Source: a virus
Virus record (IMG/VR): IMGVR_UViG_3300011445_000601
Span: 1-39,047 of that record
Length of the DNA: 39,047 nucleotides
Reading direction: 5' to 3' (one strand)
Shown piece after piece: positions 4,738 to 39,047 of the stretch (position 1 is its first letter; each line of letters begins with the position of its first letter). Below the pieces are notes generated by a model, which searched no databases, was not told the DNA's origin, and saw only the letters and a list, made by a program, of their open reading frames with translations. A program made the translations under genes and the position numbers.

Positions 4738-4844
4738 TTGGCGCCGACTGCGGTTGCTTAGACTACATACACAAGGCTGGCCACAGATGCGCCGACGGAC
4801 CGCCGTTCAGGTTCACCAAGCTGGCGCGGGGGAAGGAGAAAACC

Positions 4845-5180
4845 ATGATGATCAAAATTGCAGCGGTAACGGTAGACGATAAGCCAGGGTTCAACGCCAG
4901 CGCGCTCGACGACATGAGCGACATCCTCGGCCTGTCCGAGAGTGAGCCCGACAACGAGCCGCGCACGTTCGAGAAGTTGCTCAGACGTGTAGGCAAGCGC
5001 ATCGACGACGCGCGGGCCGCGAACGTGAAGGGGATAGCGGATGATGACGCAAGGAGAAGCAACCATGAAAAAGCGCAAACCCAAAAAGCCTTGCTAGGCG
5101 GCGGGAAGTACACCGTCGAGGAGGTGTGGGCGCTCGCTGGCTCGGTGCTCGGCCAGGACGAGACCAGGGGGAAACGCTGA
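4845..5180 (+). CDS. small acidic hypothetical protein
   Basis: 111 residues, with GGAAGGAG ahead of a double ATG. The sequence is charged and helix-rich with no recognised motif. The 107 bp before it (4738-4844) hold no convincing gene. Its TGA overlaps the next ATG by one base. Confidence 0.6.
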   Translation: MMIKIAAVTVDDKPGFNASALDDMSDILGLSESEPDNEPRTFEKLLRRVGKRIDDARAANVKGIADDDARRSNHEKAQTQKALLGGGKYTVEEVWALAGSVLGQDETRGKR

Positions 5181-5290
5181 TGGGCTATCGACTCAGGTTC
5201 TTCGCCGCGGCCGTGCTAGCGTCGCTGGCACGTAAGATCAACCGCGATGCGCTCAAGGCCGTGGCCGATGACGATTGGTGGTACTCATGA
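5180..5290 (+). CDS. 36-residue basic membrane-like peptide
   Basis: A short frame coupled on both sides (TGATG at the start, ATGA at the end). It has a hydrophobic FFAAAVLASLA stretch after a basic start, so it may sit in the membrane. It may also be only a spacer; the call rests on position and coupling. Confidence 0.4.
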   Translation: MGYRLRFFAAAVLASLARKINRDALKAVADDDWWYS

Positions 5291-5589
5291 AACTCTCGCG
5301 CGTCTGGCTCGACTTCGACTTCACGCACCCTCTGCTCGACGGCTCTCGCTCCCAGCTGTCAGAGGACGACTGCGCAGAGATGGGTGCGGCCGGCATGCGC
5401 TACGACCCAGCGACGCATAGCCTCATAATCGGAGAGAACCTCCACGGCATCGCGTGGAGCCGGGTGATACAATGGGAGGCGCTGGACATCCAACTTGTGT
5501 GCGGCGATTGCTCGAAGACGTTCAAAACAGCCCAGGCCCTCGGCTCCCACAGGCAATTCTGCAAGGGCAAGAAAGAGACGGCAGCGTAA
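5287..5589 (+). CDS. C2H2/C2HC-type zinc-finger protein
   Basis: 100 residues. The C-terminus carries CGDCSKTFKTAQALGSHRQF followed by C: C-x2-C, 12 residues, H-x3-C, a classical single zinc finger. The TAQALGSH core resembles the QALGGH finger known from plant proteins. The N-terminal 65 residues are a beta-rich region without a recognised family. It probably binds nucleic acid or a partner protein. The ATG at 5287 overlaps the preceding stop. Confidence 0.65.
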   Translation: MKLSRVWLDFDFTHPLLDGSRSQLSEDDCAEMGAAGMRYDPATHSLIIGENLHGIAWSRVIQWEALDIQLVCGDCSKTFKTAQALGSHRQFCKGKKETAA

Positions 5590-6044
5590 TGCTGAAAGTT
5601 GGAGACGAATACGTTGCGTGTTTCGTTACCGGCGACAGCTTCTCCAATCCTGGGCGCCTAGTTCTGACAGCAACGGTGGCCGTCGAGGCGCTTGATGCTG
5701 GTGGCGCCTTGCTTAGGCTGAGGGACGAGGCCAACGCGCTATCGCTACGTGAGGCTGCCTACGAGGTGCGGATACCGGGCACATTCATCGCTGGTCAGAT
5801 GACGGCGAAGTTGACCGGCAGCGTGCGTATCGAATGGTTTGTGCATCCGAAGGCGTGTGGAAACTGCGGCAGAGACGGCGGCGAGCTTATGGTCAATGGT
5901 CAAGGCGGCGACAGTTTCTACGCATGCGCTGTATGCCAGGCGTGCGAAACCTGCGGCGGCGCCGGCTGGTACTACGACGACTGCGGACGCTGCTCGGTCG
6001 GCTGTGAGGAGTGCGCCGAACGACAGCGTCATCAGCGGCTTTGA
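5589..6044 (+). CDS. Cys-rich zinc-ribbon protein upstream of terminase
   Basis: 151 residues. Residues 1-95 are a beta-rich domain. Residues 97-145 contain CGNCGRDGG, CAVCQACETCGGAGW and CGRCSVGCEEC, that is, several CxxC pairs like the DnaJ zinc-binding region. It starts one base into the previous stop (TAATG) and ends directly before the terminase ATG. It is probably a metal-binding accessory protein; exact role unknown. Confidence 0.65.
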   Translation: MLKVGDEYVACFVTGDSFSNPGRLVLTATVAVEALDAGGALLRLRDEANALSLREAAYEVRIPGTFIAGQMTAKLTGSVRIEWFVHPKACGNCGRDGGELMVNGQGGDSFYACAVCQACETCGGAGWYYDDCGRCSVGCEECAERQRHQRL

Positions 6045-14828: not shown

Positions 14829-17800
14829 ATGCCCGAGGTCCACGTTCCGCTGGTCGCTGGGCTCCACGAGGAGACGGATGCGAAGCTTTTGCCGCAGGGT
14901 CGGCTCATCCGCGCCGAGAACGTGCGTTTCCAAAAAGAGGGACGCATCGTCCAGCGTAATGGTTTTGTCTTCCAGAATGAAGCGGCCGACATCGCGCTGG
15001 AAGCCGAAAACGTCATCGCGAGCGCGAACTACGAAGCGGACCGAACGCTGCACTTCGTTGCCCGCGACGTGGCGCTAGCCCCGGCCAAGTGGACGCAGCG
15101 AAAGCCGGGCGGCACGTACACGGAGCCTTCAGTAGCGAGCTGCCTATCTAGCCTCGAAGCGCCGCTGCGTACGGTGGCGACGCCAACGATTCGGTTCAGC
15201 GCCATCGCGTCGGACATGGCAATCAACAACGGCCACCTGTTCGTGGTGCACAACGACTACGACGCTATCAACAATACGGACGGCGCGCTCATGTTCTCCG
15301 TGTTCGCTCGAGCGACTATGCAGCTCGTGGCGTCGGGCGTGATCGTGCCATTCGGCGAGTCGGCGTCGTCGTACTTCAATCCGAAGTGCATCGCGCTAGG
15401 TACCGATGTGCTCGTCTTCTACCTGCAAGACGACGAGATCAAGCTCTGGGTGTTCGACACGCTCACGTTGACCGGCGCCGACGTGGCCTTCAGCACCCCG
15501 ATCACGACGGTGGACCCTATCCCAGGGCACCACGCCTCCTTCGACATCTGCCCATACGATTCTACGCAGGTCGCGCTGTGTTTTGAGGGCATTGTCGGAG
15601 GCATATCGGTCGGCGTGTTCGCGCAGCGCGTCGCGGCCGACGGGACCAACGCCACGTTCTTGAGCTCGGTGGCCTTTGGCGTAGAACCGAAGCAGGTTGG
15701 GATCTGCCAGTTCGCTCCGGCCAATACGTCGTTTGGCATCGGCGTCATCACGGACGGAACCGTACTTTACGCCACGTATACCAATGGCGGCGCGATCGTT
15801 GGCTCCGTGCAGACCATCGACGCGTCGGGTGACGCTGCCGGGGCGCCGCTCATGGGCTCCACGAATGAGCTTAGCGTGATGATGACGTGGGCGCGCGAGG
15901 GAACACCAGCGGGGCAGCTCGGCGCATGGGCGTTCAACGGCTGGGCCGGCGGTCCGGCGGTCTACGTGCCGTCGCTGTGGCCAATATCCAAGCCGTTCGT
16001 TTCGCCCGAGGGCGGCGTGCTTTGCTGGGCCGTCGATGAGACGCACACCCTCACGTCCGAGGGCTATTCAGCGCGCGTCCCGCCGGGGGACTACGGCACC
16101 TATCGGCTCATCGACTTGGCGACGCTGCACGCGCAGGACATCGGCTCCGGAAAAGCCATCAGCGAAGCTGTGGTAGCGCAGGAACAGGCGCTCGCCGGTA
16201 ACTGGTACGTCAACGAGCCCTATGAGCAGCGCCGGCACACGGTGCTCGACACGGCCGTTACCGATACCGGATACACCGCCGACATCTTCATCACCGCGCT
16301 TCCCACGCTGGTCGGGGCGGCCACGACGGCGGGCAAGGTCGAATTCGTCGAGATCCGATCTGGCGATTATGTCGACAGGTTGATGGGGGCGAAGATCAAC
16401 GGGCAGCTTTTCCTGTCCGGCGCGCGCATGCGCGAATTCGACGGCTCGCAGCTATACGAGAGTGGACTGTTCCAGGGGCCGAAAGAGTTCACGGTCGAGA
16501 CCGTGTCCGGCGCTGCTGATTTCGTGGGCGAGCGGCACTATTGCGCGATCTGGAAGTGGATCGACGCGGGCGGGCGAGTCCACCGATCGCAGGTGAGCGA
16601 GGCCATTCTCTACGAGGGCATCGGCGAAAACACTGCCGCGCTTATCACCATTGCGCAGCCGCCATTCAGTGACCGCTCGGCCAACGACACCGTCACCATC
16701 TTTTGCGAAGTCTACCGCACCGTCCGCGACGGCTCGGTTTTCTTCCTGCTCAATCCGAATGAGCGGATCGTCATCACGCCTGACCTGTCGACTCGGCTCA
16801 CATTCACCGACGAGCAGACGGACGACGACATCTCGGACAACGAGACGATCTACATCGGCGACGGCACCATTCTCGACAACGGCGAGCCGCCGCCGTGCAA
16901 GTACATCTGGGCCGGCGAAGACAGAATCATTTGCGGTGGGCTCGAGGAGCCTTCGCAATACGCGTTTTCGAAGAAGATCCGACCCGGAGACGCCCTTGCG
17001 TTTCCGCTGAAGGAAGAGACGGCGTTCCGAGGCAGCATCGAGGGCGACGTAACCGGCGTGGCGCAACTCGACGGCGTCTGGTTCGTCGGCTCGCGCGAGG
17101 CGATATGGGCGGTCACCGGCGACGGCCCGAACAACGAAGGGCTTGGCGAATTCACGCGGCCGCGCAAGCTGCCTTCCGATACGGGATTCTTGAACCAGCG
17201 CGCGATCTGCGAGGTGCCGCAAGGGCTCCTCTTCCAGGGTCGCTCGGACAAGATGTTCCTACTTCCGCGCGGCGGCGGGGCGCCGACGTGGGTCGGTCGC
17301 ACCATCCAAGACACGCTCGCGGCGTTTCCGTTCATCGCGTGTTGCCGAGCTCTTCCGGAAGAGCACATCGCCGTCTTCCAGTGCTGGCGCTTTACCGACG
17401 GCGACGTCGATGGCGACGGCCGACTGCTCGTGTTCGATACCGATACCGGCGAATGGTCGACCGATGAGCTTTTTATCACCGAGGACGGCGCGGACCGCGA
17501 ATTCAAGAGCGTCTCATCTTGGAGCGGGAAGCTGCTCTTTGATGGCCTCATCGGCGAAACAGCCGAGTGGACCGACGACGTCGACGGCTCTTCGCCGACG
17601 TGGATCACCTACGCGATCGAGACGGGAGATGTTCGGTTCTTTGGCGCCGCCGGGACGGGGCGCGTGCGGCGCGTGCATCTGCTCGGCGAGGCGCTGGTGC
17701 CCAACGTCAACATGCTTCTCGACGTCTCGCGCGACTCGGGGGCCACTTACGACACCCCGGCGGCGACGTGGGACAGCGGCAACCCGTTCGCCGACGACCG

Positions 17801-28431: not shown

Positions 28432-28713
28432 ATGGCAACAGAGGGAACGACTTCGCAGACGTTGTTGGTGCAGCTGAAGACAGCCGCAGCGGACCAGGTG
28501 CCGTCGCCAGGCGACGGGCCGATCCTGTTCGGCGACGCGGCCAACGGCGGCCAGCTCACTGTCAAGCTGACCGACGGCACGACGCACGTGGTGACCTTTC
28601 TGCCGGGCGGGGCACCGCCGGAAGTCGAAGGCGATGCCGCTGACAATGAGGCACTGATGAACCTTCTGACCGCTCTCGCTGGGATCGGGCTCATCGTGGA
28701 CAGTACGACGTAA
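28432..28713 (+). CDS. small hypothetical protein after tailspike
   Basis: 93 residues from the ATG at 28432, with AGGAG at 28421-28425 overlapping the tailspike stop. A beta-hairpin-like core (PILFGDAANGGQLTVKLTDG) leads to a helical end. May be a spike cap or assembly factor; unassigned. Confidence 0.6.
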   Translation: MATEGTTSQTLLVQLKTAAADQVPSPGDGPILFGDAANGGQLTVKLTDGTTHVVTFLPGGAPPEVEGDAADNEALMNLLTALAGIGLIVDSTT

Positions 28714-28721
28714 AGGGAAGC

Positions 28722-29045
28722 ATGGGCGATGTGAGCGACATAGGGGACCTGCTCGCGAAGGCGCTGCGCGAAAAGCGATTGCGCGTCGTGTGGGCGCTGT
28801 GCACTGCCGCGGCCACGGTGGTCTGCACTACGGCCACCGTCTCTTGGCAGGTGCGCGGGTACGTCGCCGCGATCGAGCACAAGGCGGACGAGCTGCGCTC
28901 GGACCTGCGCGTGTACGCAAAGGACATTGAGCAACTTCAGGAGCAGCAGAGAGAGGACAAGAAAGAACTCGCACACATCAGGGAGCGGGCTGACAGCGCC
29001 TTGCTCATTGCGCAACTTGCAAAGAGCGGGGTTGTAAAGCCATGA
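28722..29045 (+). CDS. membrane protein with coiled coil (holin or inner spanin candidate)
   Basis: 107 residues. One hydrophobic segment at about residues 22-43 (VVWALCTAAATVVCTTATV) after a charged start, followed by a long charged coiled coil (DIEQLQEQQREDKKELAHIR). This layout (short inner part, one membrane pass, helical outside part) fits an inner spanin; a holin is the alternative. It opens the lysis cassette. AAAGGGA precedes the ATG. Confidence 0.6.
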   Translation: MGDVSDIGDLLAKALREKRLRVVWALCTAAATVVCTTATVSWQVRGYVAAIEHKADELRSDLRVYAKDIEQLQEQQREDKKELAHIRERADSALLIAQLAKSGVVKP

Positions 29046-29218
29046 ATTCCGAATTCGAAACACGGTTGAAGGTTATCGAGACACAGCAGGTGATGATTAT
29101 CGACTTGCTGAAAGACATCTGCGCAATCCTTGGCATCAGAGAGAAGGCCATCGATAAGGCGAAGCGTCTCGAGATAATGAACGGTGAGACGTTCGAGCAG
29201 AATGAGGTAACAAAATGA
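29042..29218 (+). CDS. 58-residue helical protein in lysis cassette
   Basis: Starts in an ATGA overlap with the preceding gene and ends in an ATGA overlap with the next. A helical, charged peptide (RLKVIETQQVMIIDLLKDI) with no membrane segment. Its base composition is visibly less GC-rich than its neighbours. Function unknown; the tight coupling on both sides argues it is real. Confidence 0.6.
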   Translation: MNSEFETRLKVIETQQVMIIDLLKDICAILGIREKAIDKAKRLEIMNGETFEQNEVTK

Positions 29219-29421
29219 CGGCTGAACAAGTTGTGGAATTGCTGGCGGCCATTACGGCGCTTACCGTCGCTCTGCATACGCTCGGCGCCGCGGCCAATCC
29301 GTGGGTGAGGGCGTTGCTCTCTATTCTCCCGCTCGACGTCATCGGCGCGATTCGGCGGGCAAAGGGGAAGGCTGGCGCGGCCACTGCCCCGAACATCTGG
29401 GGCGACCGGGGGCCTGAGTGA
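29215..29421 (+). CDS. small membrane protein, holin candidate
   Basis: 68 residues with a hydrophobic N-terminal half (VVELLAAITALTVALHTLGA), a second moderately hydrophobic stretch (VRALLSILPLDVIGAI) and a basic tail (RRAKGKAG). One or two membrane passes plus a charged C-terminus and the place between spanin-like genes suggest a holin. Not provable from sequence. Confidence 0.55.
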   Translation: MTAEQVVELLAAITALTVALHTLGAAANPWVRALLSILPLDVIGAIRRAKGKAGAATAPNIWGDRGPE

Positions 29422-29630
29422 AGCGCCTCAAGCTGGTCATCGCCGTGGCGCTCTGGATCGCCTTCGGCGCCTCGTGCAGCGGCGGCCGGCCATCGCCGGA
29501 GACGGCCATCCGGGCGGCGCTCGACGTCATCGAGATTCTATGCCCGCCCGAGACCACCATGGGCGATTGCACCAATCGGATACGGGCGTGGCTACCGTCG
29601 AAGCGCATCGCCGACGCGGGGGCTGATTGA
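29418..29630 (+). CDS. small lipoprotein, outer spanin candidate
   Basis: 70 residues from a GTG (GTGA overlap). Basic start, hydrophobic core and a cysteine (MKRLKLVIAVALWIAFGASC) give a lipoprotein-type signal, although position -3 (Gly) is not ideal for a lipobox. A short mature part with two further Cys follows. In a lysis cassette beside a coiled-coil membrane protein it fits an outer-membrane spanin, which also implies a Gram-negative host. Confidence 0.6.
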   Translation: MKRLKLVIAVALWIAFGASCSGGRPSPETAIRAALDVIEILCPPETTMGDCTNRIRAWLPSKRIADAGAD

Positions 29631-30373
29631 TGCGCTCGATCCTCAAGGTGCGCGGCATCTCAAGGCTCACGTCCGAAGAGCTCCACTCGTTCTTTGCGTG
29701 CGCCGACACCATCGGTATAGATCCGGACTGGCTTGCGTGCGTCGTCTCGTTCGAGACGGGGGGCTCGTTCTCCCCGTCTCAGCGTAACCACTGGGCAGAA
29801 GCCGACGCCAAGCGCCGCGGCGTGCCGTACAGCGGGGCGATGGGATTGATCCAGTTCATGCCGCAGACGGCGCGGTCCCTCGGGACATCGACAGAGGGCC
29901 TAGAGGCGATGTCGTTCGTCATGCAGCTCGGATACGTGCGGCGCTACTTCTCCACGTACGCCGACCGAATCGACAACCTCGAGGATTGCTACCTCGCCGT
30001 CTTCTTCCCCGCGGCCATCGGGAGAGCCGACAGCTACGTCGTTGGGCGGCGAGACGACCCTGGATTCTCCGGGCGCGTGTTCGAGCAGAACGCGTGGTTT
30101 GACGGCAGGGGCGGGCCGAAAGACGGGGAGATCACGCGGGCGGAGATCTGCTCTGCGATCCGCGCCGTGCGCGCCGCGGCCGACGGACAACGCATCAACT
30201 TCGGCACGGACGACACCGGCGAGGAGCCCATGGAGTTTCCGAAGGTGGCGCCGCTGCTCGACATGACCCAACTCGCCCGCGACGCCGACGATGCGGCGCG
30301 GGACGAGACGCACGTCGAAGAGGGGCACACGATCGCGCTCGCGCCCGACGAGGAGAAGGACGAAAAGACATGA
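29630..30373 (+). CDS. endolysin: SLT/lysozyme-like muramidase
   Basis: 247 residues. Residues 35-90 contain LACVVSFETGGSFSPSQRNH and GAMGLIQFMPQTARSLG, the lysozyme-fold pattern with catalytic Glu (E42) and the GAxGLxQFxPxTA segment. The following helices (LGYVRRYFSTYADR) complete the fold. The C-terminal 70 residues are acidic and probably disordered. No signal peptide, so it would need the holin. The ATG shares one base with the preceding TGA. It cleaves peptidoglycan at lysis. Confidence 0.8.
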   Translation: MRSILKVRGISRLTSEELHSFFACADTIGIDPDWLACVVSFETGGSFSPSQRNHWAEADAKRRGVPYSGAMGLIQFMPQTARSLGTSTEGLEAMSFVMQLGYVRRYFSTYADRIDNLEDCYLAVFFPAAIGRADSYVVGRRDDPGFSGRVFEQNAWFDGRGGPKDGEITRAEICSAIRAVRAAADGQRINFGTDDTGEEPMEFPKVAPLLDMTQLARDADDAARDETHVEEGHTIALAPDEEKDEKT

Positions 30374-30816
30374 CCATCAGCAACACGTACGAAGCTGCGA
30401 TCCTGGCGCACATCTACCAAAATATCGCCATCCCTGGCCTGGGCGACGCCGCGGGCGTTCTGCCGTCGGCGGCGGCTGGCACCATCAAGGTCGCGCTGCA
30501 TTCTTCCGACCCGGGGGACGCGGGCTCGCAGACAACCAACGAGATTGCTTACACTAGCTATGCGCGCGCAACGGTCATTCGCGGGTCCGGCGCTGGCGCA
30601 ATCACGCTGTCAGGCACATCTCCGACGCAGATCTCGAACACGTCGGCCCTGTCGTGGCCAATGTGCACGGGGGGCACCGATACGGCGACGCACTTCAGCT
30701 TCGGCGACGACGACGGCGACATCATCCACTCCGGCGCCCTGAACGCACCGCTATTGATAACGAACCTCATCACCCCAACCGCGGCGGCGGGCGCGCTCGT
30801 CGCCACACTTGACTGA
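30370..30816 (+). CDS. small tail-fibre/appendage-type protein
   Basis: 148 residues. The run IKVALHSSDPGDAGSQTTNE followed by IAYTSYARATVIRG and SWPMCTGGTDTATHFSFGD resembles a widespread family of small phage structural proteins (LHTADPGxxGTQTxEIxYxGYARxxV...CTGGTxTATHxxIG) usually annotated as tail-fibre proteins. Coupled by ATGA to the endolysin. Confidence 0.6.
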   Translation: MTISNTYEAAILAHIYQNIAIPGLGDAAGVLPSAAAGTIKVALHSSDPGDAGSQTTNEIAYTSYARATVIRGSGAGAITLSGTSPTQISNTSALSWPMCTGGTDTATHFSFGDDDGDIIHSGALNAPLLITNLITPTAAAGALVATLD

Positions 30817-31613
30817 TGACCGACATCCTATCGCTCGACAACTACCTCGCCGCGGCGAGGCAGCGAATCAATTGGACCAAGACGGCGTCGAGGACGACGA
30901 TCGCCGCGCAGTGGTTCTCTGTGTTCGATCTCGCCGGCAACCCAGGCGCGGGCGTGCTCGCCGGCACCAGCACGACGGCCGGCGTCGTCCCCACCGACGC
31001 GACCGCGGGTACGCCGATCATCAATGCGTTCGGCGGCTCTGCCACGGGGCGGCTTTCCAAGGTCGAGTTTGGCTCGACAGTGGCTTGCCGGATTCAACTG
31101 TTTGACCTGCTTTTCAAGGCGGGGGCGTACGCATTCAACGCCAACACCGCCCTCTCCGCGCAGCCGTCCTATGCCGCTCGGCTCCCTGGAACCAACTACT
31201 CCCTCACGGAGATATGGGTAGAGCAGGTGACGGCGGCCACCGGAAACCAGGCCGTCAACGTCACCTACACCGACCAGTCTGGCAACACCGGCAACACGAC
31301 CGGGGCGACGGGCGTAGGCGCGGCTCCCACGGTGGGGCGGTGCTGGCAGCTCCCATTCGCGGCCGGAGACTCCGGGGTCCAGGTCGTCACCAACGTGCAG
31401 GGAAGCGTGGCGACAGCTGGAACATTCAATGTTCTAGTCCTACGCCCGCTCTGGTCCGGCCGCGTGCGGCTGGTCAACGATGGTGACGTCCACGATCTAC
31501 TGCGCACCGGCATGCCTCAGGTATTCGACACCAGCGCCTTTTATTGCATGATCGCCGCCGACTCCACAGCGAGCGGGATTCCAGATCTCGCCATCGAAGT
31601 AGCGAACGGCTAG
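30816..31613 (+). CDS. hypothetical structural protein
   Basis: 265 residues, with an N-terminal helix (YLAAARQRINWTKTASRTTI) then Gly/Thr/Ala-rich beta strands (VNVTYTDQSGNTGNTTGATG). Its look is that of a head or tail surface protein. It shares one base with the preceding TGA. No family recognised. Confidence 0.55.
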   Translation: MTDILSLDNYLAAARQRINWTKTASRTTIAAQWFSVFDLAGNPGAGVLAGTSTTAGVVPTDATAGTPIINAFGGSATGRLSKVEFGSTVACRIQLFDLLFKAGAYAFNANTALSAQPSYAARLPGTNYSLTEIWVEQVTAATGNQAVNVTYTDQSGNTGNTTGATGVGAAPTVGRCWQLPFAAGDSGVQVVTNVQGSVATAGTFNVLVLRPLWSGRVRLVNDGDVHDLLRTGMPQVFDTSAFYCMIAADSTASGIPDLAIEVANG

Positions 31614-31616
31614 GCC

Positions 31617-32006
31617 ATGGCGAACGTTTGGCGGCGGCAACCGTCGAGCCGCCTTCGGTCGTCCGATCTCGTCGCCGGGATAGACGAGTCGGCGGCCGCC
31701 GCCGTCGCAAACACCTTTTGGGAGGACGCGCCGGGGGGCGGCCCTGGCGTCGTCGATGGCACTGCAACCGGCACCGGCACCGCGTTCGGCGAGATCTACG
31801 GCGTCGGCGACGTCAACGCGCTCCTCGGGTCGAGCCACGGCACGGGGACAGCCTTCGGCTTCGTCACCAGTTTGGGGGACACGTCGGGCATTGCCCACGG
31901 CTTCGGGACGGCGTACGGCGACGTCACAGGCGTGCCACCTCCGCCGCCCCCGCCGCAGCTCGTCAGGCGCCGCGCGTGGGCGCCGCAGGGGATGGGCAGG
32001 GCCTAG
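31617..32006 (+). CDS. Gly-rich repeat protein, last late gene
   Basis: 129 residues. The middle has three imperfect repeats of about 21 residues starting GTGTAFG, GTGTAFG and GFGTAYG, then a PPPPPPP run and a basic end. Glycine-rich repeats suggest a tail-tip or fibre part. The TAG overlaps the stop of the converging leftward gene in a shared CTAG. Confidence 0.55.
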   Translation: MANVWRRQPSSRLRSSDLVAGIDESAAAAVANTFWEDAPGGGPGVVDGTATGTGTAFGEIYGVGDVNALLGSSHGTGTAFGFVTSLGDTSGIAHGFGTAYGDVTGVPPPPPPPQLVRRRAWAPQGMGRA

Positions 32007-32215
32007 GGCAGGCCGCGCCAGAGCGCGTCGACGCCGCGCCGCACCACTTCTGATCGCGAGACGTCCCACTTGGTCGCCAGCACGCCGATCAACGTCACGA
32101 GGTGCGGGTGCAACGAAAACGACGCGACGACCGTCTTGCCCTCCTCGCGTCGTTTCTCTTGCGACCACGTCTCGCCGTGGCCTGTCGATTTTGTTTTTCT
32201 CGGCCGACGTCTCAT
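32003..32215 (-). CDS. ribbon-helix-helix (CopG/Arc-type) DNA-binding protein
   Basis: 70 residues. After a basic, probably flexible first 27 residues comes TVVASFSLHPHLVTLIGVLA (residues 28-47), then DVSRSEVVRRGVDALW, matching the strand-helix-helix layout of RHH repressors. It would bind DNA as a dimer and may regulate one of the phage operons. It is the last leftward gene, coupled by ATGA to the gene upstream. Confidence 0.65.
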   Translation of the reverse strand: MRRRPRKTKSTGHGETWSQEKRREEGKTVVASFSLHPHLVTLIGVLATKWDVSRSEVVRRGVDALWRGLP

Positions 32216-32409
32216 TTGTTGAGCCTAGCGATCTCGGCGACGAGCGTAGAGCGATACAGCTCCCAATCGGCGCCAGTAGTTGCCTGGTTGGCGCTGTCGA
32301 TTGCCCACGCCTCCGAGTCCCAATCGCCAGACACCGTCTCGCCAGGGAATTCGTCGACGAAAACCGCCGCTGCCTTGCTTGCCAGTTGAATCACTGTATC
32401 TTTTTTCAT
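32212..32409 (-). CDS. small acidic hypothetical protein
   Basis: 65 residues with GGAGG ahead of the ATG. Helical start (VIQLASKAAAVFVDEF), then a Trp/Asp-rich part (DWDSEAWAID). Preceded by the 32441-32469 hairpin, which separates it from the gene upstream and suggests its own control. Unassigned. Confidence 0.6.
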   Translation of the reverse strand: MKKDTVIQLASKAAAVFVDEFPGETVSGDWDSEAWAIDSANQATTGADWELYRSTLVAEIARLNK

Positions 32410-32440
32410 TGGTCGATCCTCCTATCAGGTTTGGCCCACG

Positions 32441-32469
32441 GCCCCCGGCGGTGTCTGCCGCGCGGGGGC
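32441..32469 (-). promoter_or_regulatory. GC-rich hairpin with GGCGGTGTCTGCCGC core, copy 1
   Basis: Inverted repeat GCCCCC...GGGGGC (32441-32446 and 32464-32469) surrounding GGCGGTGTCTGCCGC (32447-32461), whose own arms pair CGG with CCG around TGTCTG. It lies between two leftward genes, about 25 nt before the Shine-Dalgarno of the 32409 gene. There is no U-run, so it may be an operator, attenuator or mRNA-stability element rather than a simple terminator. Confidence 0.6.
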
Positions 32470-32487
32470 CACTTCGTTGGCGGGCGG

Positions 32488-32706
32488 TCAGTGCGACTCG
32501 CGGCACCGGTGTTGCGCGCAGCCGTGTGTCGCGCACTGCGCGTCGGGGTCGAGGCTAAGCAGGGACGCGGACTGGATGGTGCGGGTACCGTTGCTCCAGG
32601 CGACCTCGACCTGGTCGCCGTCCACGGCGACCACGCGGCCGGTGTCGTAATCCTCTGTACCAGGCGTGCCGGCATGAACCTTGTCGCGCACGGCGAGGCG
32701 GCTCAC
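32488..32706 (-). CDS. small SH3/Tudor-like protein with Cys/His tail
   Basis: 72 residues. Core VHAGTPGTEDYDTGRVVAVD then GDQVEVAWSNGTR is the pattern of small KOW/SH3-like barrels. The tail has CATHGCAQHRCRESH, a possible metal-binding cluster. Coupled by overlap with the 32960 gene. Function unknown. Confidence 0.6.
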   Translation of the reverse strand: MSRLAVRDKVHAGTPGTEDYDTGRVVAVDGDQVEVAWSNGTRTIQSASLLSLDPDAQCATHGCAQHRCRESH

Positions 32707-32960
32707 TGTGCACCTTTACGCGCGGCTACGCGCGTCGCGTGTAGTGCAGCTTCGCCCTTTGCCAAGCGCTCGTCGGCGGCCTTGATAACCGCAAGTTCCG
32801 CAGCCTCAGCCTCGCTCGCAGTGACGCCGAGCTCTTCGCGCAGTGCAACCTCGAACGCGTATTCGTGCTTCTTAATCCCACGCGCCGCGACGCGATCCAG
32901 GGCGGCCTGGTACTCAACCGAAACGAAGTTCTCTTTGGCGCGCTCTTCGATGGTTTTCAT
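32703..32960 (-). CDS. helical hypothetical protein
   Basis: 85 residues, charged and helical throughout (ERAKENFVSVEYQAALDRVA). AAGGAGAG precedes the ATG, with a hairpin (32979-32998) just upstream. It starts a small sub-cluster after a 120-bp gap in an otherwise overlapping operon. Unassigned. Confidence 0.6.
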   Translation of the reverse strand: MKTIEERAKENFVSVEYQAALDRVAARGIKKHEYAFEVALREELGVTASEAEAAELAVIKAADERLAKGEAALHATRVAARKGAQ

Positions 32961-32978
32961 TCTGCCTATCTCTCCTTG

Positions 32979-32998
32979 GAGGCGGTGTCTGCCGCCTC
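32979..32998 (-). promoter_or_regulatory. hairpin with GGCGGTGTCTGCC core, copy 2
   Basis: Perfect 7-bp inverted repeat GAGGCGG / CCGCCTC around TGTCTG. The same GGCGGTGTCTGCCGC core occurs at 32447-32461. On the minus strand it ends just before the Shine-Dalgarno (AAGGAGAG) of the 32960 gene, so it could control translation or bind a regulator. Confidence 0.65.
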
Positions 32999-33014
32999 AC
33001 ACCAATCAATCTAG

Positions 33015-33031
33015 CACCGCTATTAGCGGTG
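33015..33031 (-). terminator. short perfect hairpin in gap of leftward operon
   Basis: CACCGCT-ATT-AGCGGTG, a 7-bp stem with a 3-nt loop, in the gap between the AP2-like gene (ends 33081) and the 32960 gene. Directly after it on the plus strand comes GTCT, so AGCGGTGTCT repeats part of the GGCGGTGTCT core of the two neighbouring hairpins. It could end the long leftward transcript or be a third regulator site. Confidence 0.45.
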
Positions 33032-33080
33032 TCTATAGTAAATCGGCGCAGTAGTGCAGATTGTTGGCAAGTACGCGAAT

Positions 33081-33269
33081 TCACGCGACCTTGGCCCTTT
33101 CCATGAACTCCGCGATTGCCTTCTCTGCGGCCCTGTAGTTGTCGAAGTGACCAAGCTTCACGCCGCGCGTGTTCTTGAGCCCGGGTGCGTAGGCGATCCA
33201 GCCCGGTTTCCACCGCGAGCGCTCGATTCGCCCCGTCTTGGCGGCCCGCATCTCGTTGCCAGCTGCCAT
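33081..33269 (-). CDS. AP2-like small protein, copy B
   Basis: 62 residues from the ATG at 33269 (a GTG one codon earlier is possible). GRIERSRWKPGWIAYAPGLK and VKLGHFDNYRAAEKAIAEFM form the three-strand-plus-helix outline of AP2/integrase-type DNA-binding mini-domains (W/Y...LGxFDxxxxAxxA). It is a clear paralogue of the gene just upstream, sharing GHFDxY, AExAI and the C-terminal ERAKVA. Probably DNA binding. Confidence 0.65.
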   Translation of the reverse strand: MAAGNEMRAAKTGRIERSRWKPGWIAYAPGLKNTRGVKLGHFDNYRAAEKAIAEFMERAKVA

Positions 33270-33463
33270 CACGCCACCTTTGCCCGTTCGAGAAAGAACG
33301 TGATCGCACGCTCCGCCTGGCCGTACGTATCGAAGTGCCCCAAGTACGGCCCCTTCTTTCCGCCCTTCTGCGGCCCGAAAGCCTGCCAGCCGGCCCTGTT
33401 CTTCGATGCGCGGCGGATGACGCCAGTGCCGTGCGAGCGTGTGTGGCCGTACGTGGCGGGCAT
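33269..33463 (-). CDS. AP2-like small protein, copy A
   Basis: 64 residues. TGVIRRASKNRAGWQAFGPQ, then PYLGHFDTYGQAERAITFFL and ERAKVA. Same layout as copy B, with which it overlaps by one base (TGATG), so the pair arose by tandem duplication and diverged. Its own start overlaps the stop of the nuclease gene. Confidence 0.65.
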   Translation of the reverse strand: MPATYGHTRSHGTGVIRRASKNRAGWQAFGPQKGGKKGPYLGHFDTYGQAERAITFFLERAKVA

Positions 33464-34122
33464 CAGGCCACCTTCTTCAGCACGGCGTCGAGCTCGTAGA
33501 GTTTGCGCATGCCGCGAAACGCCTCGAGGCCCACGTCGAGAATGGCCGGCGGGAAGAAGTGGTAGTGAAAGTCGCCGAACTCCTTTCCGACCCGAAGGAG
33601 GTGGGCGCCGTCGAGCTCTTGGCCGGTGCACTCGCGCACAATCTCGCGGTAAGCGGCGAGCTGGATCACGTACTCCGGATAGATGCGCCCCGACGTTTTC
33701 CAATCGATGAGCGACGCCTTGCCGTGCACGAGACCGATGGCGTCGTAGGTCCCGCCGACGCGCATCGCCTCCGAGACGTGCGGCGTCTCGGTGGAGAGGA
33801 TCTCGAGGCTCACCTGCGCGCGCCACGTGCGGAACGCGTCGAGGCCGTTCGCGGCGGCGGCCAAGTCCTCTGGCGTGGCGTCGCGGAATTCGGTGAGCGG
33901 CCGCCCGTGCACCTCGTCGTCGATCCATCCGTGGCAAATCTTGCCGATGCCGCCGGCTTGGTCGCGAACGGCGTTGATATCGCCGCCCTCGAGGCCGATC
34001 TTCCAGGCCCAGTTGATGAGCCCGCCGGAGTCTTTGAACCGGCCAACAACGGTCGTCACGCCGGGCACGCGCTTCCCGTCCTTCGTCTTGTAGGCCGCGG
34101 GGCGGCCGCCACCGCTACGCAT
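33463..34122 (-). CDS. PD-(D/E)XK nuclease of RecB/Cas4 type
   Basis: 219 residues. The core MRVGGTYDAIGLVHGKASLI then DWKTSG shows D127, D140 and K142 (GxxD...D-W-K), followed by QLAAY near 154-158, the RecB-family Q motif. The start GVTTVVGRFKDSGGLINWAW is usual for phage exonucleases of this class. AGGAGG lies just before the ATG. It is coupled (8-bp overlap) to the candidate annealing protein, giving the common exonuclease-annealase recombination pair. Confidence 0.8.
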   Translation of the reverse strand: MRSGGGRPAAYKTKDGKRVPGVTTVVGRFKDSGGLINWAWKIGLEGGDINAVRDQAGGIGKICHGWIDDEVHGRPLTEFRDATPEDLAAAANGLDAFRTWRAQVSLEILSTETPHVSEAMRVGGTYDAIGLVHGKASLIDWKTSGRIYPEYVIQLAAYREIVRECTGQELDGAHLLRVGKEFGDFHYHFFPPAILDVGLEAFRGMRKLYELDAVLKKVA

Positions 34123-34984
34123 GGGGCACCTCCTCCTGTGCGCCTTCAATGGCGACCTTGCGCTGCGTCCCAGCGTCGATGAGCTCGACCAGCGCCTTTT
34201 CTGGCAGACTCCTGTCGTTGCGCGCGCGAACGATGCGCTGCTTTGCGCGCCCAAGGTCGTCGAGCGTGTCGGCTTTCATGATCTCGCCGAGAATGGCCGT
34301 AAAGAGCATGGCCGATTGCTGGTCGTTCGGCGGCGGAGGCGACGACGGAGCCGCGCGTCCGCCCGTGAAGGCCTCCTCGGGCAAGTCTTCGACGTCTTGC
34401 GTGAAGAGCCCCGACGAGCGCGTTGCGCCGATGACGGCCATGACAAGCGCTCGCTTGCACGCCATCTTTTTGATGGTGTTGACGAGCGAGAAGATGTCGT
34501 CGTTCGGGATGAAGAATTGCGTGTAGGGCCGCCCGTTCTTCTTGCTCTTGCCCTCGCGGCGTTTCAGCGTGGCTTTCGCGAGACCCGGCGGAATCTCGTT
34601 ATCGAATGCCCATCGGCCGGCGTAGCGCTTCTCTTTTGAGTTGCACGAGCCGATGCCGTCGCCAATGAAGCCGCCGTCGCTGCGCGACGTGAGAACGCAC
34701 CTAACCTCGTAATGGAAAAGCGGCTTGTCCCAATCCTCGACTGCGCGCACGTCCTGGAACGACTGCGAGAAGCCGTAGATCTCGCAGAGTTTCTGCGCGC
34801 CCGGCTGGAGCAGCGTCGGCTTGTCGGTCCCGGGGATTACCCCGAAGTCGATGTCCTCCTTCATGACCTCTTGCACGAACGCCTGTAGCTGCTGAAGGCG
34901 ACGCATCGCCTCGGCCGGCGACGTGGCCATGGTCAGGCCGCCGTAGTCCCCCCCCGTTGTCGCGAGCGCGTTGCCGTTATCCAT
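34115..34984 (-). CDS. candidate single-strand annealing/recombination protein
   Basis: 289 residues from the ATG at 34984. Residues 30-71 carry the signature KEDIDFGVIPGTDKPTLLQP followed by GAQKLCEIYG, known from a widespread group of phage proteins found next to RecB-like nucleases. The middle (EIPPGLAKATLKRREGKSKK, TIKKMACKRALVMAVIGATR) also fits that group. The C-terminal 90 residues are a flexible Pro linker and a helical end. The role as annealase or its partner is inferred from the nuclease next to it. Confidence 0.6.
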   Translation of the reverse strand: MDNGNALATTGGDYGGLTMATSPAEAMRRLQQLQAFVQEVMKEDIDFGVIPGTDKPTLLQPGAQKLCEIYGFSQSFQDVRAVEDWDKPLFHYEVRCVLTSRSDGGFIGDGIGSCNSKEKRYAGRWAFDNEIPPGLAKATLKRREGKSKKNGRPYTQFFIPNDDIFSLVNTIKKMACKRALVMAVIGATRSSGLFTQDVEDLPEEAFTGGRAAPSSPPPPNDQQSAMLFTAILGEIMKADTLDDLGRAKQRIVRARNDRSLPEKALVELIDAGTQRKVAIEGAQEEVPHA

Positions 34985-35249
34985 TGGCGGCCTCCGGCAA
35001 AGGGTCAACGCCTACCAGCACCACGCGCTCCGCCCGATGCTCGTCGAGCTTGGAGCGCAGCTCATTGAGCACGCGCTCCGGTGTCGTGTCCTCGTTCAAG
35101 CCGATCCAGCCAACATGCTCCTCGTACACCGCAAAGCGCACCGTTGGCAGGCAGCCGTTGTGGTGCGCGATGTCGATCTGCACGTGGACGTAAGCCTTCT
35201 CGCCAGCTATCTCCAAAGCTCTTCGGTCGAATTCTGCTGCTGTAATCAT
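34977..35249 (-). CDS. small hypothetical protein in recombination operon
   Basis: 90 residues from the ATG at 35249; the longer upstream frame is a shadow of the next gene. Alternating strands and helices (YVHVQIDIAHHNGCLPTVRF, VLNELRSKLDEHRAERVVLV). Coupled by overlaps on both sides. Unassigned. Confidence 0.6.
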   Translation of the reverse strand: MITAAEFDRRALEIAGEKAYVHVQIDIAHHNGCLPTVRFAVYEEHVGWIGLNEDTTPERVLNELRSKLDEHRAERVVLVGVDPLPEAANG

Positions 35250-35548
35250 TGGCGTGTCTCCTTGTTTGATGAACTTTGGCGGCACGAGGCGAAGTGCGGC
35301 GCGTAGCGGCGCTGTCCCTCGTGAGCCGGACCGAAGGTCACGGCGTTGCCGGCGACGATGACCCAGTCGCCTTGGGGATTCGGGTCGAACGGCATGCGCT
35401 TTCCCGTGGCCGTCGTTGACCACACGATCACCGCGTGGCAATCGCGGCACACGCCGTTGCTCGATTGCTCGACGGGCACTTGCTTCGCCCGCTGCACGGG
35501 CGTCCCGAGAAACCGCAGCAGCTTGCGCCCACGCTCGTAGTTGCTCAT
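35246..35548 (-). CDS. zinc-finger-like small protein
   Basis: 100 residues. CRDCHAVIVWSTTATGKRMP then FDPNP, and at the end APHFASC: a C-x2-C...H-x3-C arrangement seen in a common family of small phage proteins (CxxCxxxIxWxxTxxGKRMPFD...HFxxC). Probably structural zinc; function unknown. Confidence 0.65.
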   Translation of the reverse strand: MSNYERGRKLLRFLGTPVQRAKQVPVEQSSNGVCRDCHAVIVWSTTATGKRMPFDPNPQGDWVIVAGNAVTFGPAHEGQRRYAPHFASCRQSSSNKETRQ

Positions 35549-35715
35549 CGGATGTCGGCCTTGTCGTCACAGGGGTCGTGCTCGTCGCGCGGCGTCGGGC
35601 ATGCCGGGCACACGCCGTGCTCCAGCGGGGCGCCGCATTCGAGGCAGGCGAGAACGACTCGCCGCGGCGACGTGTTCGCCAGCCCTGGAATCTTGTGAGG
35701 CCGGGGCGCTTTCAC
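35545..35715 (-). CDS. 56-residue zinc ribbon
   Basis: GTG start in a GTGA overlap and ATGA overlap at the end. CLECGAPLEHGVCPACP gives two CxxC pairs within 17 residues, a compact zinc ribbon. The longer frame on the same strand upstream is antisense-like noise. Confidence 0.6.
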   Translation of the reverse strand: MKAPRPHKIPGLANTSPRRVVLACLECGAPLEHGVCPACPTPRDEHDPCDDKADIR

Positions 35716-36053
35716 AGCTGCACCATACCGACGCACGCCGGCCAGCCTCGCGACAGCCGCTCGCACGACATCGCGCGCGCTTTCGCAACGCACTCGTCGG
35801 CCTGGTCCGCGTCCATGACCACGATGCCGAGCGCGCCGCCCTCGCACTGTGCGTAAACCTTGCGCAGCTGCTCGTGGTACCAGGCGTCGGGCGACAGCTC
35901 GCACTCGGTGAGCCGCACCTCGAGCGCGCGCACGTACTCGGTGCACGTCGCATCGCCGACGCGGACCGCGCAGCTGCTGCACGTCGCAACGAGCGCCGCG
36001 ATTGCGTAGACGCCAACGACGACGGAGGCAGTGAACAGAGCGCCTAGTTTCAT
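35712..36053 (-). CDS. Cys-rich exported or membrane-anchored protein
   Basis: 113 residues with a hydrophobic N-terminal segment (LGALFTASVVVGVYAIAALVATC) and nine Cys in all, most after the membrane segment. It probably sits in the inner membrane facing the periplasm, or is secreted. GAGGT precedes the ATG. Its place in an early operon suggests a host-takeover or exclusion role, which is only a guess. Confidence 0.6.
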   Translation of the reverse strand: MKLGALFTASVVVGVYAIAALVATCSSCAVRVGDATCTEYVRALEVRLTECELSPDAWYHEQLRKVYAQCEGGALGIVVMDADQADECVAKARAMSCERLSRGWPACVGMVQL

Positions 36054-36063
36054 GGTTGACCTC

Positions 36064-36258
36064 TCAATTCCACGGTGAAACCCTCCAAGGGTGGGACGAC
36101 AACTCGCGCTCCATTGCCCGCGTGATCTCCGCCCGCATCGCGCGCATGGCCTTCATGGCCTGCGTACGCTCGCACTTGTGGCCGTGCAGGTGACCGGCCC
36201 AGAACGCGATTACGCAGAGCAGAATCCCCGAGGAGAGAGCGATTACGACTTCGATCAC
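36064..36258 (-). CDS. small single-pass membrane protein
   Basis: 64 residues: hydrophobic residues 3-24 (EVVIALSSGILLCVIAFWAG), then a His/Lys-rich and helical charged tail. Coupled by ATGA to the secreted lysozyme-like gene. The larger overlapping frame at 36050-36289 is Arg-rich noise. Possible partner of the lysozyme-like protein or an early membrane effector. Confidence 0.6.
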   Translation of the reverse strand: MIEVVIALSSGILLCVIAFWAGHLHGHKCERTQAMKAMRAMRAEITRAMERELSSHPWRVSPWN

Positions 36259-36737
36259 GATTCCACCAACGCCTTTCTCGCGTTCGCATATAGACGGTCG
36301 TAGTTCTTCGGCCTGTCCTTCACGCGGCGGTCCGTCGCCGGCAGTCTGCCAACGTGACGGCGAATCGCCTTGCGCATGCTGCCGCCAACCATCGCGCGGT
36401 GAATGCGCAGCTCGCGCCCCGCTAGGTCAGTGGAAAGAGTGTTCGACGCGCATATCTCGTCCGGCGAGTGCCCATCCCACCAATAGAATTGCAGCTGGAA
36501 TAGGCCGTACGCCCGCGGTTTGCCGTTCTTGTCAGGGTCGCACTCCCACCGTTTGCAGGCACACCTCTCGATGGTCTCGCGAAAGTCAGACTCAGCCGCC
36601 GCCGTGACGACGAGAGCGACGGCGATCTCCAAGTCGTCACCGGCGGCCAGGGCGATGTCGGCCGCGTACCGCTCCGCAGTGGCCGCGGGGAGCGCCGGGG
36701 CGAGCGTGAGGATTGCTGCGAGGACGAGCGCGGTCAT
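36255..36737 (-). CDS. secreted lysozyme/transglycosylase-like protein
   Basis: 160 residues. N-terminal signal peptide (MTALVLAAILTLAPALPAAT, likely cleaved after ATA). Then VVTAAAESDFRETIERCACK with a candidate catalytic Glu (E49), and AYGLFQLQFYWWDGHSPDEI, the GLFQ segment of the lysozyme fold; Cys pairs may form disulphides. Unlike the endolysin at 29630 it has its own export signal and lies in the early operon, so it may act in the periplasm on entry or exclusion, or be a signal-exported lysin. Confidence 0.65.
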   Translation of the reverse strand: MTALVLAAILTLAPALPAATAERYAADIALAAGDDLEIAVALVVTAAAESDFRETIERCACKRWECDPDKNGKPRAYGLFQLQFYWWDGHSPDEICASNTLSTDLAGRELRIHRAMVGGSMRKAIRRHVGRLPATDRRVKDRPKNYDRLYANARKALVES

Positions 36738-36886
36738 TGCTTCTCCGTGATCCGCACAGGATGCAGGTCGTCGTACGCCACAAGCGACTTGGTCGAGCGC
36801 GAGGCGTCGTTGATCAGAAAAAGGACGATCCCAGGCACCGACATCACGCCGCAGAACGTCCAGCGCTGGCGAGAGAGGGGGCTCAC
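36734..36886 (-). CDS. 50-residue single-pass membrane peptide
   Basis: GTG start in a GTGA overlap; ATGA overlap with the next gene. Basic start, hydrophobic stretch (FCGVMSVPGIVLFLI), then a polar outer part. The couplings on both sides make it likely despite its size. Early membrane peptide of unknown role. Confidence 0.55.
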   Translation of the reverse strand: MSPLSRQRWTFCGVMSVPGIVLFLINDASRSTKSLVAYDDLHPVRITEKQ

Positions 36887-37047
36887 GACTGCCCCCTTTC
36901 AGCGCGGATGCGCCGGCAGAGCTCCTCGTAGCGGTCCAGCACCGTGGTCAGCGCCGGCAGCGGGCGCTCCACCTCGCGCTGGAGCCTGTCAAGGCGGATT
37001 GAAAGCTCGGCCGTGGCTACTGCGAGGGCGGGGGAATTGGTTTGCAT
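36883..37047 (-). CDS. first gene of leftward operon, small helical protein
   Basis: 54 residues from the ATG at 37047, forming a charged coiled-coil-like helix (LSIRLDRLQREVERPLPALT). The ATG lies 7 nt past the promoter -10 box, so the message is probably leaderless; the GGAGG seen there ends 1 nt before the ATG and is too close to act as a normal ribosome binding site. The extended frame from 37083 would start inside the promoter. Confidence 0.6.
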   Translation of the reverse strand: MQTNSPALAVATAELSIRLDRLQREVERPLPALTTVLDRYEELCRRIRAERGQS

Positions 37048-37054
37048 GCCTCCG

Positions 37055-37083
37055 ACGATAATGGCACTCGACAACAATGTCAA
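37055..37083 (-). promoter_or_regulatory. leftward early promoter (PL-like)
   Basis: On the minus strand: TTGACA (37083-37078), 17-bp spacer, TATCGT (37060-37055), then 7 nt to the ATG at 37047. The spacer contains a GACA-TTGT-TGTC inverted repeat with the -35 and ends in TGCCAT. Most positions are the same as in the rightward promoter at 37430, so the two are probably controlled by the same repressor. Confidence 0.75.
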
Positions 37084-37137
37084 GCGCCATGATTGTCGAT
37101 TCTACCCGACGTGACGGCCGGCCATGCGCAGGCTCTC

Positions 37138-37406
37138 CTACCTGGCTCGTGGGCGGCTACTTGGGCGCTCTTGGCTGCTCGGCGCCTCCACCGCGGCATT
37201 CTCGCCCGCCACTAACCTTTCCACCGTCGTCCCGAGCGCAGCGGCGAGCCTGGCCACGGCGGCAACCGACTGGATGACCTGTTTTCGCTTTCCAGACTTG
37301 AGCCCATGGTTCTGTCCTCGTTGCCAGCGGTCGCAGGACCGGCCCCCTTCAGATCAAAGCCGGCGGCGGCGATGGCTTGCCGTAGCTCTTGCTCAAAGGT
37401 TCGCAT
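37138..37406 (-). pseudogene. CI-like XRE repressor gene with apparent frameshift
   Basis: The ATG at 37406 opens MRTFEQELRQAIAAAGFDLK and would run to a stop at 37212, but the second part of that frame is not protein-like. Another minus-strand frame, closed upstream by a TGA at 37354-37356 and ending at 37138, gives LKSGKRKQVIQSVAAVARLA then AALGTTVERLVAG, a textbook helix-turn-helix XRE end. One extra G in the G5 run (plus-strand C5 at 37343-37347) would join them into 89 residues. Placed between two promoters facing away from it, this is the expected repressor gene. The break may be real or a homopolymer error. Confidence 0.65.
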
Positions 37407-37416
37407 GGCAAGCGCC

Positions 37417-37442
37417 GCAACGATGGCTGTTGACATCGTTGC
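37417..37442. promoter_or_regulatory. operator-like inverted repeat over the rightward -35
   Basis: Perfect 9-bp arms GCAACGATG (37417-37425) and CATCGTTGC (37434-37442), 8 bp apart, overlapping the TTGACA box and beginning 11 bp from the repressor ATG. A second, weaker inverted repeat GATGC-N9-GCATC (37445-37463) covers the -10. Both suit a dimeric helix-turn-helix regulator controlling both divergent genes. Confidence 0.7.
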
Positions 37443-37458
37443 CAGATGCCATTATCGT
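37430..37458 (+). promoter_or_regulatory. rightward early promoter (PR-like)
   Basis: TTGACA (37430-37435), 17-bp spacer, TATCGT (37453-37458), then 7 nt to the ATG at 37466 and no Shine-Dalgarno, so the Cro-like message is probably leaderless. Same boxes, same spacer length and the same TGCCAT spacer end as the leftward promoter. Confidence 0.75.
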
Positions 37459-37465
37459 GCATCTC

Positions 37466-37738
37466 ATGTCAGGACGACCCTATCGGACGAATCTTGGAAA
37501 ACGACGCAGTGAGGGGGTCCGGCTCCTCTGGGAGGCGATGCGCCTTCGTGGCCACGACCAGGCCACCGCGACGAAGGTGCTCGGCTGCGGCACCGGCGTT
37601 GTCTCGCGGTGGCTCTATTGCGAGTCGAGCCCGACGGCGCCGTGGCCGACGAAGATCGAGGAGAAGTATGGCGTACCGGCTGGCGCTTGGGGCAAGAGCC
37701 CTTCGAAGCGAATCCGATTACCTGGCGAGGCGGCGTGA
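37466..37738 (+). CDS. Cro-like helix-turn-helix protein
   Basis: 90 residues. LLWEAMRLRGHDQATATKVL then GCGTGVVSRWLYCESSPTAP has the helix-turn-helix with VxRWL recognition segment, and IEEKYGVPAGAW closes it, as in Cro/YdaS-type proteins. First gene after the rightward promoter and divergent from the repressor frame, so it probably plays the Cro part. Start chosen by promoter spacing; the longer frame from 37124 runs antisense to the repressor. Confidence 0.7.
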   Translation: MSGRPYRTNLGKRRSEGVRLLWEAMRLRGHDQATATKVLGCGTGVVSRWLYCESSPTAPWPTKIEEKYGVPAGAWGKSPSKRIRLPGEAA

Positions 37739-38402: not shown

Positions 38403-39047
38403 ATGGCCAAAAATAAGCTCTACACGTTGACCGACGAGCACCGCGCGCAGCTGAAGCCGTGGGCCGACAAGTGGACATCGAACGCGATGAGCACCGCGCC
38501 GATGACCGCGGACGATAAGCAAATCTGCGCCGATGCCGTGCGCGGCATGTACGCAAGTGCCAAGTTGGAGCCACCGAAGGCAATTGTCTTTTGCGCAAGT
38601 CCGCTGACTGCTGCGCTCGCGAGCGGCATTGCCTGCGGTGTCTGGTACCTGCGAAAGCATCCTGAGCTCCACCAGCGTCTTTTTGGCCAGAGCATAGCGG
38701 AGCGTGAATTGATGTCCGCGATCGGGCCGGCGTGCGCAATTGCGGTCGCATCAGCAAGGCGGAGGTTGGCGACTTTGGTCGTCCAGCCTCCGCCGCCAGC
38801 GACCTACGCCGCGGCGACCGACGACGCGACCTACGCCGCGACCGACGCCGCGACCCGCGACGCGACCGACGCCGCGACCTACGCCGCGACCGGCGCCGCG
38901 ACCGGCGCCGCGACCCACGCCGCGACCCGCGACGCGACCGGCGCCGCGACCGGCGCCGCGACCTACGCCGCGACCGACGACGCGACCGACGACGCGACCG
39001 ACGCCGCGACCCACGCCGCGACCGACGACGCGACCGACGACGCGACC
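38403..39047 (+). CDS. DUF6745-like protein with tetrapeptide repeats, N-terminal part (continues at base 2)
   Basis: 215 codons from the ATG at 38403 to the window end, which falls exactly on a codon boundary. Residues 1-130 form a helical domain (LKPWADKWTSNAMSTAPMTA; AIVFCASPLTAALASGIACG), followed by PPPP and then the A-(A/D)-T-X tetrapeptides. The frame joins the C-terminal part at base 2 if the ends overlap by the 4 bases GACC. With the C-terminal part this gives a protein of at least about 550 residues, its repeat number uncertain. The N-terminal motif order is that of DUF6745-type proteins. Confidence 0.75.
   Translation, partial: MAKNKLYTLTDEHRAQLKPWADKWTSNAMSTAPMTADDKQICADAVRGMYASAKLEPPKAIVFCASPLTAALASGIACGVWYLRKHPELHQRLFGQSIAERELMSAIGPACAIAVASARRRLATLVVQPPPPATYAAATDDATYAATDAATRDATDAATYAATGAATGAATHAATRDATGAATGAATYAATDDATDDATDAATHAATDDATDDAT
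38799..39047 (+). repeat. 12-bp tandem repeat tract (right half)
   Basis: About 20 units of the same 12-bp repeat as at 1-340, in the same coding phase relative to the gene (A-T-X-A). The last 45 bases repeat sequence also found inside the first 65 bases of the window, but no long exact end overlap exists. This supports a break inside one tract rather than a terminal duplication. Confidence 0.95.

Follow-up and report, generated by a model that had tools for sequence, protein, structure and literature searches.

The window analysed here is the complete virus record IMGVR_UViG_3300011445_000601, taken at its full length of 39047 bases. A leftward operon extends from 37047 to 32003 and is made up of tightly packed small early-type genes, as called by codon usage. 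Only two of its intergenic gaps exceed 10 nt, at 32410–32487 (78 nt) and 32961–33080 (120 nt); both carry a repeated element, and a shared 15-mer is found in exactly these two gaps. The gap sizes depend on the codon-usage gene calls and the open reading frame listing, since the genes were defined that way; the calls were made with a custom script trained on long open reading frames, at least one of which (31756–33054 on the plus strand, overlying the locus described here) is probably spurious. The two gaps and four small genes on the minus strand form an accessory cassette (32007–33080). Its first gene (32703–32960, 85 aa) encodes a predicted helical protein (mean pLDDT of 75.7 for a model from one sequence) and is followed by a 72-aa gene (32488–32706) with a weak match to phrog_10954 (E 0.0086). 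The 78-nt gap precedes a 65-aa gene (32212–32409), which overlaps by 4 nt the last gene of the cassette (32003–32215), encoding a 70-aa ribbon-helix-helix-like (RHH) protein that matches the transcriptional regulator family phrog_3887 (E 8e-4). The cassette thus consists of two parallel units, each a hairpin followed by a gene pair: 85 aa plus 72 aa, and 65 aa plus RHH.

The initial annotation had placed one 15-base core within hairpins in the leaders of two leftward genes, and we confirmed this: GGCGGTGTCTGCCGC occurs exactly at 32447–32461 and 32981–32995, each time inside the leader hairpin, and the record contains no further copy even when one mismatch is allowed. Both hairpins lie on the coding (minus) strand, where GCGG/CCGC closes a CAGACA loop. 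The stem of hairpin 1 (32440–32470) comprises 12 bp and a single bulge, and the hairpin lies 30 nt upstream of the ATG of the 65-aa gene; hairpin 2 (32979–32998) has a 7-bp stem and lies 18 nt upstream of the ATG of the 85-aa gene. Loop and inner stem are the same in both, while the outer stems differ and that of hairpin 1 is longer. The leaders are dissimilar outside the core, yet the core is exact and outer pairing persists. The Shine-Dalgarno sequence AAGGAGA of the 85-aa gene (32971–32977, minus strand) is situated directly below hairpin 2 at a distance of 1 nt and is predicted to be unpaired with probabilities of 0.84–0.98. The AGGAGG of the 65-aa gene (32418–32423, minus strand) lies 16 nt from hairpin 1 and yields values of 0.41–0.52, being partly paired in a short local stem that is separate from the core hairpin. 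Burial of the Shine-Dalgarno sequences by the core hairpins is thus not supported by the unpaired probabilities, both sites lying outside these hairpins. Neither hairpin is followed by a U tract, and no terminator-like site was found on the minus strand between 31900 and 37600.

Across the whole window outside the array at its ends, repeated 15-mers are not rare: by our own count there are 27, compared to a mean of 12 (range 6–24) in 30 Markov simulations. The excluded array, of 12-nt tandem units, is located at both record ends (1–330 and 38766–39047), which raises the possibility of genome closure by way of the array; two tRNA calls within it are probably artefacts of the array. For the two gaps themselves the longest common word is 15 nt, and none of 4000 shuffles gave 14 or more. 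Only 1 of 3954 random pairs of window segments of the same sizes shared 15 nt, and among all 105 gap pairs the next best after the two element gaps shares 11. Both the position in the two gaps and the shuffle statistics therefore back the shared leader element proposed in the initial annotation. The fold-energy z-score is −2.98 for the hairpin 1 region and −6.17 for the region comprising hairpin 2 and a third predicted hairpin upstream of it. For hairpin 2 alone it is −1.90, with 8 of 200 shuffles equally stable. No other 40-nt window on the minus strand of the record is as stable as that of hairpin 1; the windows of hairpins 2 and 3 do not stand out, as 15% and 25% of windows, respectively, are as stable. 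Of 53 further copies of the core in viral sequences, one extends pairing as far as hairpin 1 and five extend it as far as hairpin 2, so hairpin 2 adds little beyond the core itself. The element is real, ordered and beyond chance, but of a known kind and present in two copies.

The closest relative found, locus L003, is 99.6% identical over 28575–31868 and about 92% identical over 33467–34142. It matches the window up to the left border of the cassette and again from the exonuclease gene onward, and lacks 32007–33080; the hairpins therefore belong to an accessory stretch. Between the exonuclease gene and the convergent gene L003 carries one 63-aa gene, and at that position the window holds two related small genes followed by the four-gene stretch. 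The two related genes adjoin each other (33081–33463), and the single L003 copy is about 42% identical. On the tail side of the cassette, the gene at 31617–32006 encodes 129 aa, and its L003 counterpart (4842–5609) is longer (255 aa) owing to extra glycine-threonine-rich repeats. On the comparison with this one relative, the stretch may have been gained here rather than lost in L003.

Searches for homologues of the cassette gave negative results at several levels. The four genes have no relative among 225 fetched loci, where the single match was spurious, and the 85-, 65- and 72-aa genes and the RHH gene have none in GenBank phages. Plasmids contained no relative of the 85-aa gene, and IMG/VR no genuine relative of the 85-, 65- and 72-aa queries in a search that detects close relatives only. 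This spurious match, that of the 72-aa query in L147, was rejected: its 20 residues are not in the frame of the 626-aa reading frame that contains them. The core was absent, up to 1 mismatch, from all 13 related records, i.e. the record of L003 plus 12 of 48 further loci (a 49th, L083, is again the record of L003); a match with 2 mismatches was found in the record of L003 (locus L077). In viral contigs 73 stretches contain GGCGGCAGACACCGCC, and in 17 viral stretches the core has a Shine-Dalgarno sequence and an ATG behind it. In 16 of the 17 the core sits in a long, coding-looking open frame; that of L073 is possibly part of a leader, but a T tract there resembles a terminator. A genome scan with the protein encoded at 34115–34984 retained 80 loci (out of 212 relatives), whose hosts were highly diverse. 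GenBank phages searched with window positions 15000–39000 contained no close DNA match, and the two papers found on repeated leader hairpins did not, to judge by title and abstract, concern this element.

Upstream of hairpin 2 lies a third site with a different organization. A 17-nt palindrome, CACCGCTAATAGCGGTG (33015–33031), occurs once in the window at up to 3 mismatches. The shortened form of the core, GCGGTGTCT, had been annotated as following a third hairpin here; it is located at 33026–33034 and overlaps the palindrome. The fold of this site differs from hairpins 1 and 2 because CACCGC pairs downstream instead of upstream. The palindrome fills the spacer of a promoter-like site on the minus strand (33008–33035, TAGACA-16-TAGATT with TG before the −10), which shows 9 of 12 matches plus the TG when scored by sigma-70 rules, which may not apply in the host. 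Six sites in the window satisfy the same rule, and only this one is TG-extended; of the other five, those at 37083 and 37430 diverge from one another. A 41-nt inverted repeat (37055–37095 and 37418–37458) holds these two divergent TTGACA-17-TATCGT promoters, and the region is probably a phage switch region. No promoter-like site was found before hairpin 1. Judged by its sequence, 33035–33008 (TAGACA-16-TGC-TAGATT) may be an extended −10 promoter belonging to the cassette itself. Transcription would then start near 33000, 7 nt below the −10, which would put hairpin 2 at the very 5′ end of the transcript.

The palindrome within the promoter spacer is a plausible operator candidate, and the RHH protein may repress the cassette promoter through it. 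A one-sequence model of this protein shows two helices at low confidence (mean pLDDT of 66.5), and its structural matches include weak CopG hits, none of them significant. The initial annotation had suggested that a regulator, perhaps the RHH protein, acts through the shared core. Such regulation would fit the palindrome, but hardly one shared core: the half-sites of the palindrome point inward, those of hairpins 1 and 2 outward. With this difference in geometry, RHH binding to a single core is weakly supported.

We compared the locus with several classes of known elements. A terminator of its own is a feature of a moron, though not every usage of the term demands one; none was found for the cassette on the minus strand within 31900–37600, so we call it moron-like rather than a moron. 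The cassette is inserted between genes that adjoin in L003, the one relative compared. It resembles phage morons such as P22 pid in carrying small orphan genes where a relative has none and in its apparent own control; pid is called a moron, related phages having no insert or another one there (PMC3573128). It differs in lying on the strand of the preceding operon, in the terminator not found and in comprising four genes in two pairs. The repeats also recall the start-associated sequences (SAS) and extended SAS (ESAS) of cluster K mycobacteriophages, which are short, partly inverted repeats immediately upstream of the starts of small non-structural genes. The SAS, GGGATAGGAGCCC, is described as lying 3–7 bp before starts in 11–19 copies, and RNA pairing of the ESAS as thought unlikely (PMC3203893). 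In contrast, the element studied here has another sequence, two copies instead of 11–19 and exact pairing. The SAS consensus gave 10 matches in the record at up to 3 mismatches compared to 12.15 expected, with none in the two leaders. Stabilizing 5′ or intercistronic mRNA stem-loops are similar in position, as our hairpins are found near a predicted 5′ end and between genes, but here there are two copies with an identical loop, and a stabilizing effect is putative. CopG-like RHH repressors with palindromic operators likewise combine an RHH-like gene and a promoter-spacer palindrome as in this cassette, but the operator here is a candidate and the palindrome is not common to the two hairpins. 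No Rfam family matched at the gathering score: the two microRNA matches obtained were at chance level and scored far under it. Integron attC sites carry RYYYAAC and then GTTRRRY around a hairpin; no such pair surrounds either hairpin.

Tentatively, we take the repeats to control a moron-like cassette (32007–33080) that was added at the end of the leftward early operon. With a start near 33000, a transcript from the putative cassette promoter would carry hairpin 2 almost at its 5′ end, above the Shine-Dalgarno sequence of the first gene, and the RHH protein may repress at the candidate operator in the promoter spacer. Hairpin 1 would lie between the first gene pair (85 aa and 72 aa) and the second (65 aa and RHH). 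As RNA, hairpin 2 would most likely protect the 5′ end, and hairpin 1 would most likely shield both parts of the message or keep them apart. With U tract and terminator absent and the Shine-Dalgarno sequences not buried, mRNA protection or punctuation, RNA recognition and DNA binding are the roles left. We rank the first of these highest because stem-loops are listed among the features that protect mRNA (PMC7509114); the hairpins probably protect or punctuate mRNA, a function that is a reasoned guess. The same source notes that a stem near a Shine-Dalgarno sequence can lower stability, as in Bacillus subtilis ermC (PMC7509114), which counts against this explanation.

A rather unlikely alternative, with still some weight, is that the 9-mer AGACACCGC serves a regulator (RHH or other) as a half-site on DNA, with hairpins arising incidentally where such sites are paired. 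The 9-mer has four exact copies, every one on the minus strand, compared with 0.44 expected (0 of 100 shuffles), one of them overlaps the −35 of the promoter-like site, and an RHH-like gene sits in the same cassette. However, the inward orientation at the palindrome and outward orientation at hairpins 1 and 2 do not fit a single arrangement, the 8-bp outer stem of hairpin 1 would have no role, and the fourth copy (38635–38643) lies within an open reading frame and has no visible paired arm. It is unlikely that a specific binding protein or nuclease reads the loop CAGACA as an RNA site in translational control or processing. The identity of loop and inner stem despite differing outer stems would suit such recognition, for which the T4 gene 43 operator hairpin offers a phage precedent, its top 10 bases being common to RB69 (PMC3014915); two copies only, the unequal Shine-Dalgarno distances (1 and 16 nt) and the lack of a candidate protein speak against it. 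We consider it improbable that the CAGACA hairpins form a class that marks separate cassette gene pairs, with a dedicated RNA-binding factor setting the expression of each pair. The two leaders might also be the remnant of a duplication, or of two small cassettes that were joined, leaving a core without function, in line with the parallel layout of the two units; this, too, has little probability, as the leaders are unlike outside the core although the core is exact and outer pairing persists. That the hairpins act as intrinsic terminators or attenuators, the latter having been offered in the initial annotation, is very improbable: a strong GC hairpin does stand between genes, but the combination of GC stem and U tract that defines an intrinsic terminator is present in neither hairpin 1 nor 2, and attenuation by this route is unsupported in the absence of minus-strand terminator-like sites from 31900 to 37600. 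Chance likeness of two GC-rich hairpins is hardly credible given the shuffles of the two gaps, even with 15-mer repeats not being rare across the window.

Read as control elements of a moron-like cassette, the repeats suggest that an uncultured phage lineage carries a compact accessory cassette equipped with control parts of its own. If the hairpins do act on mRNA, they would be small punctuation marks that enable such cassettes wherever they are inserted.
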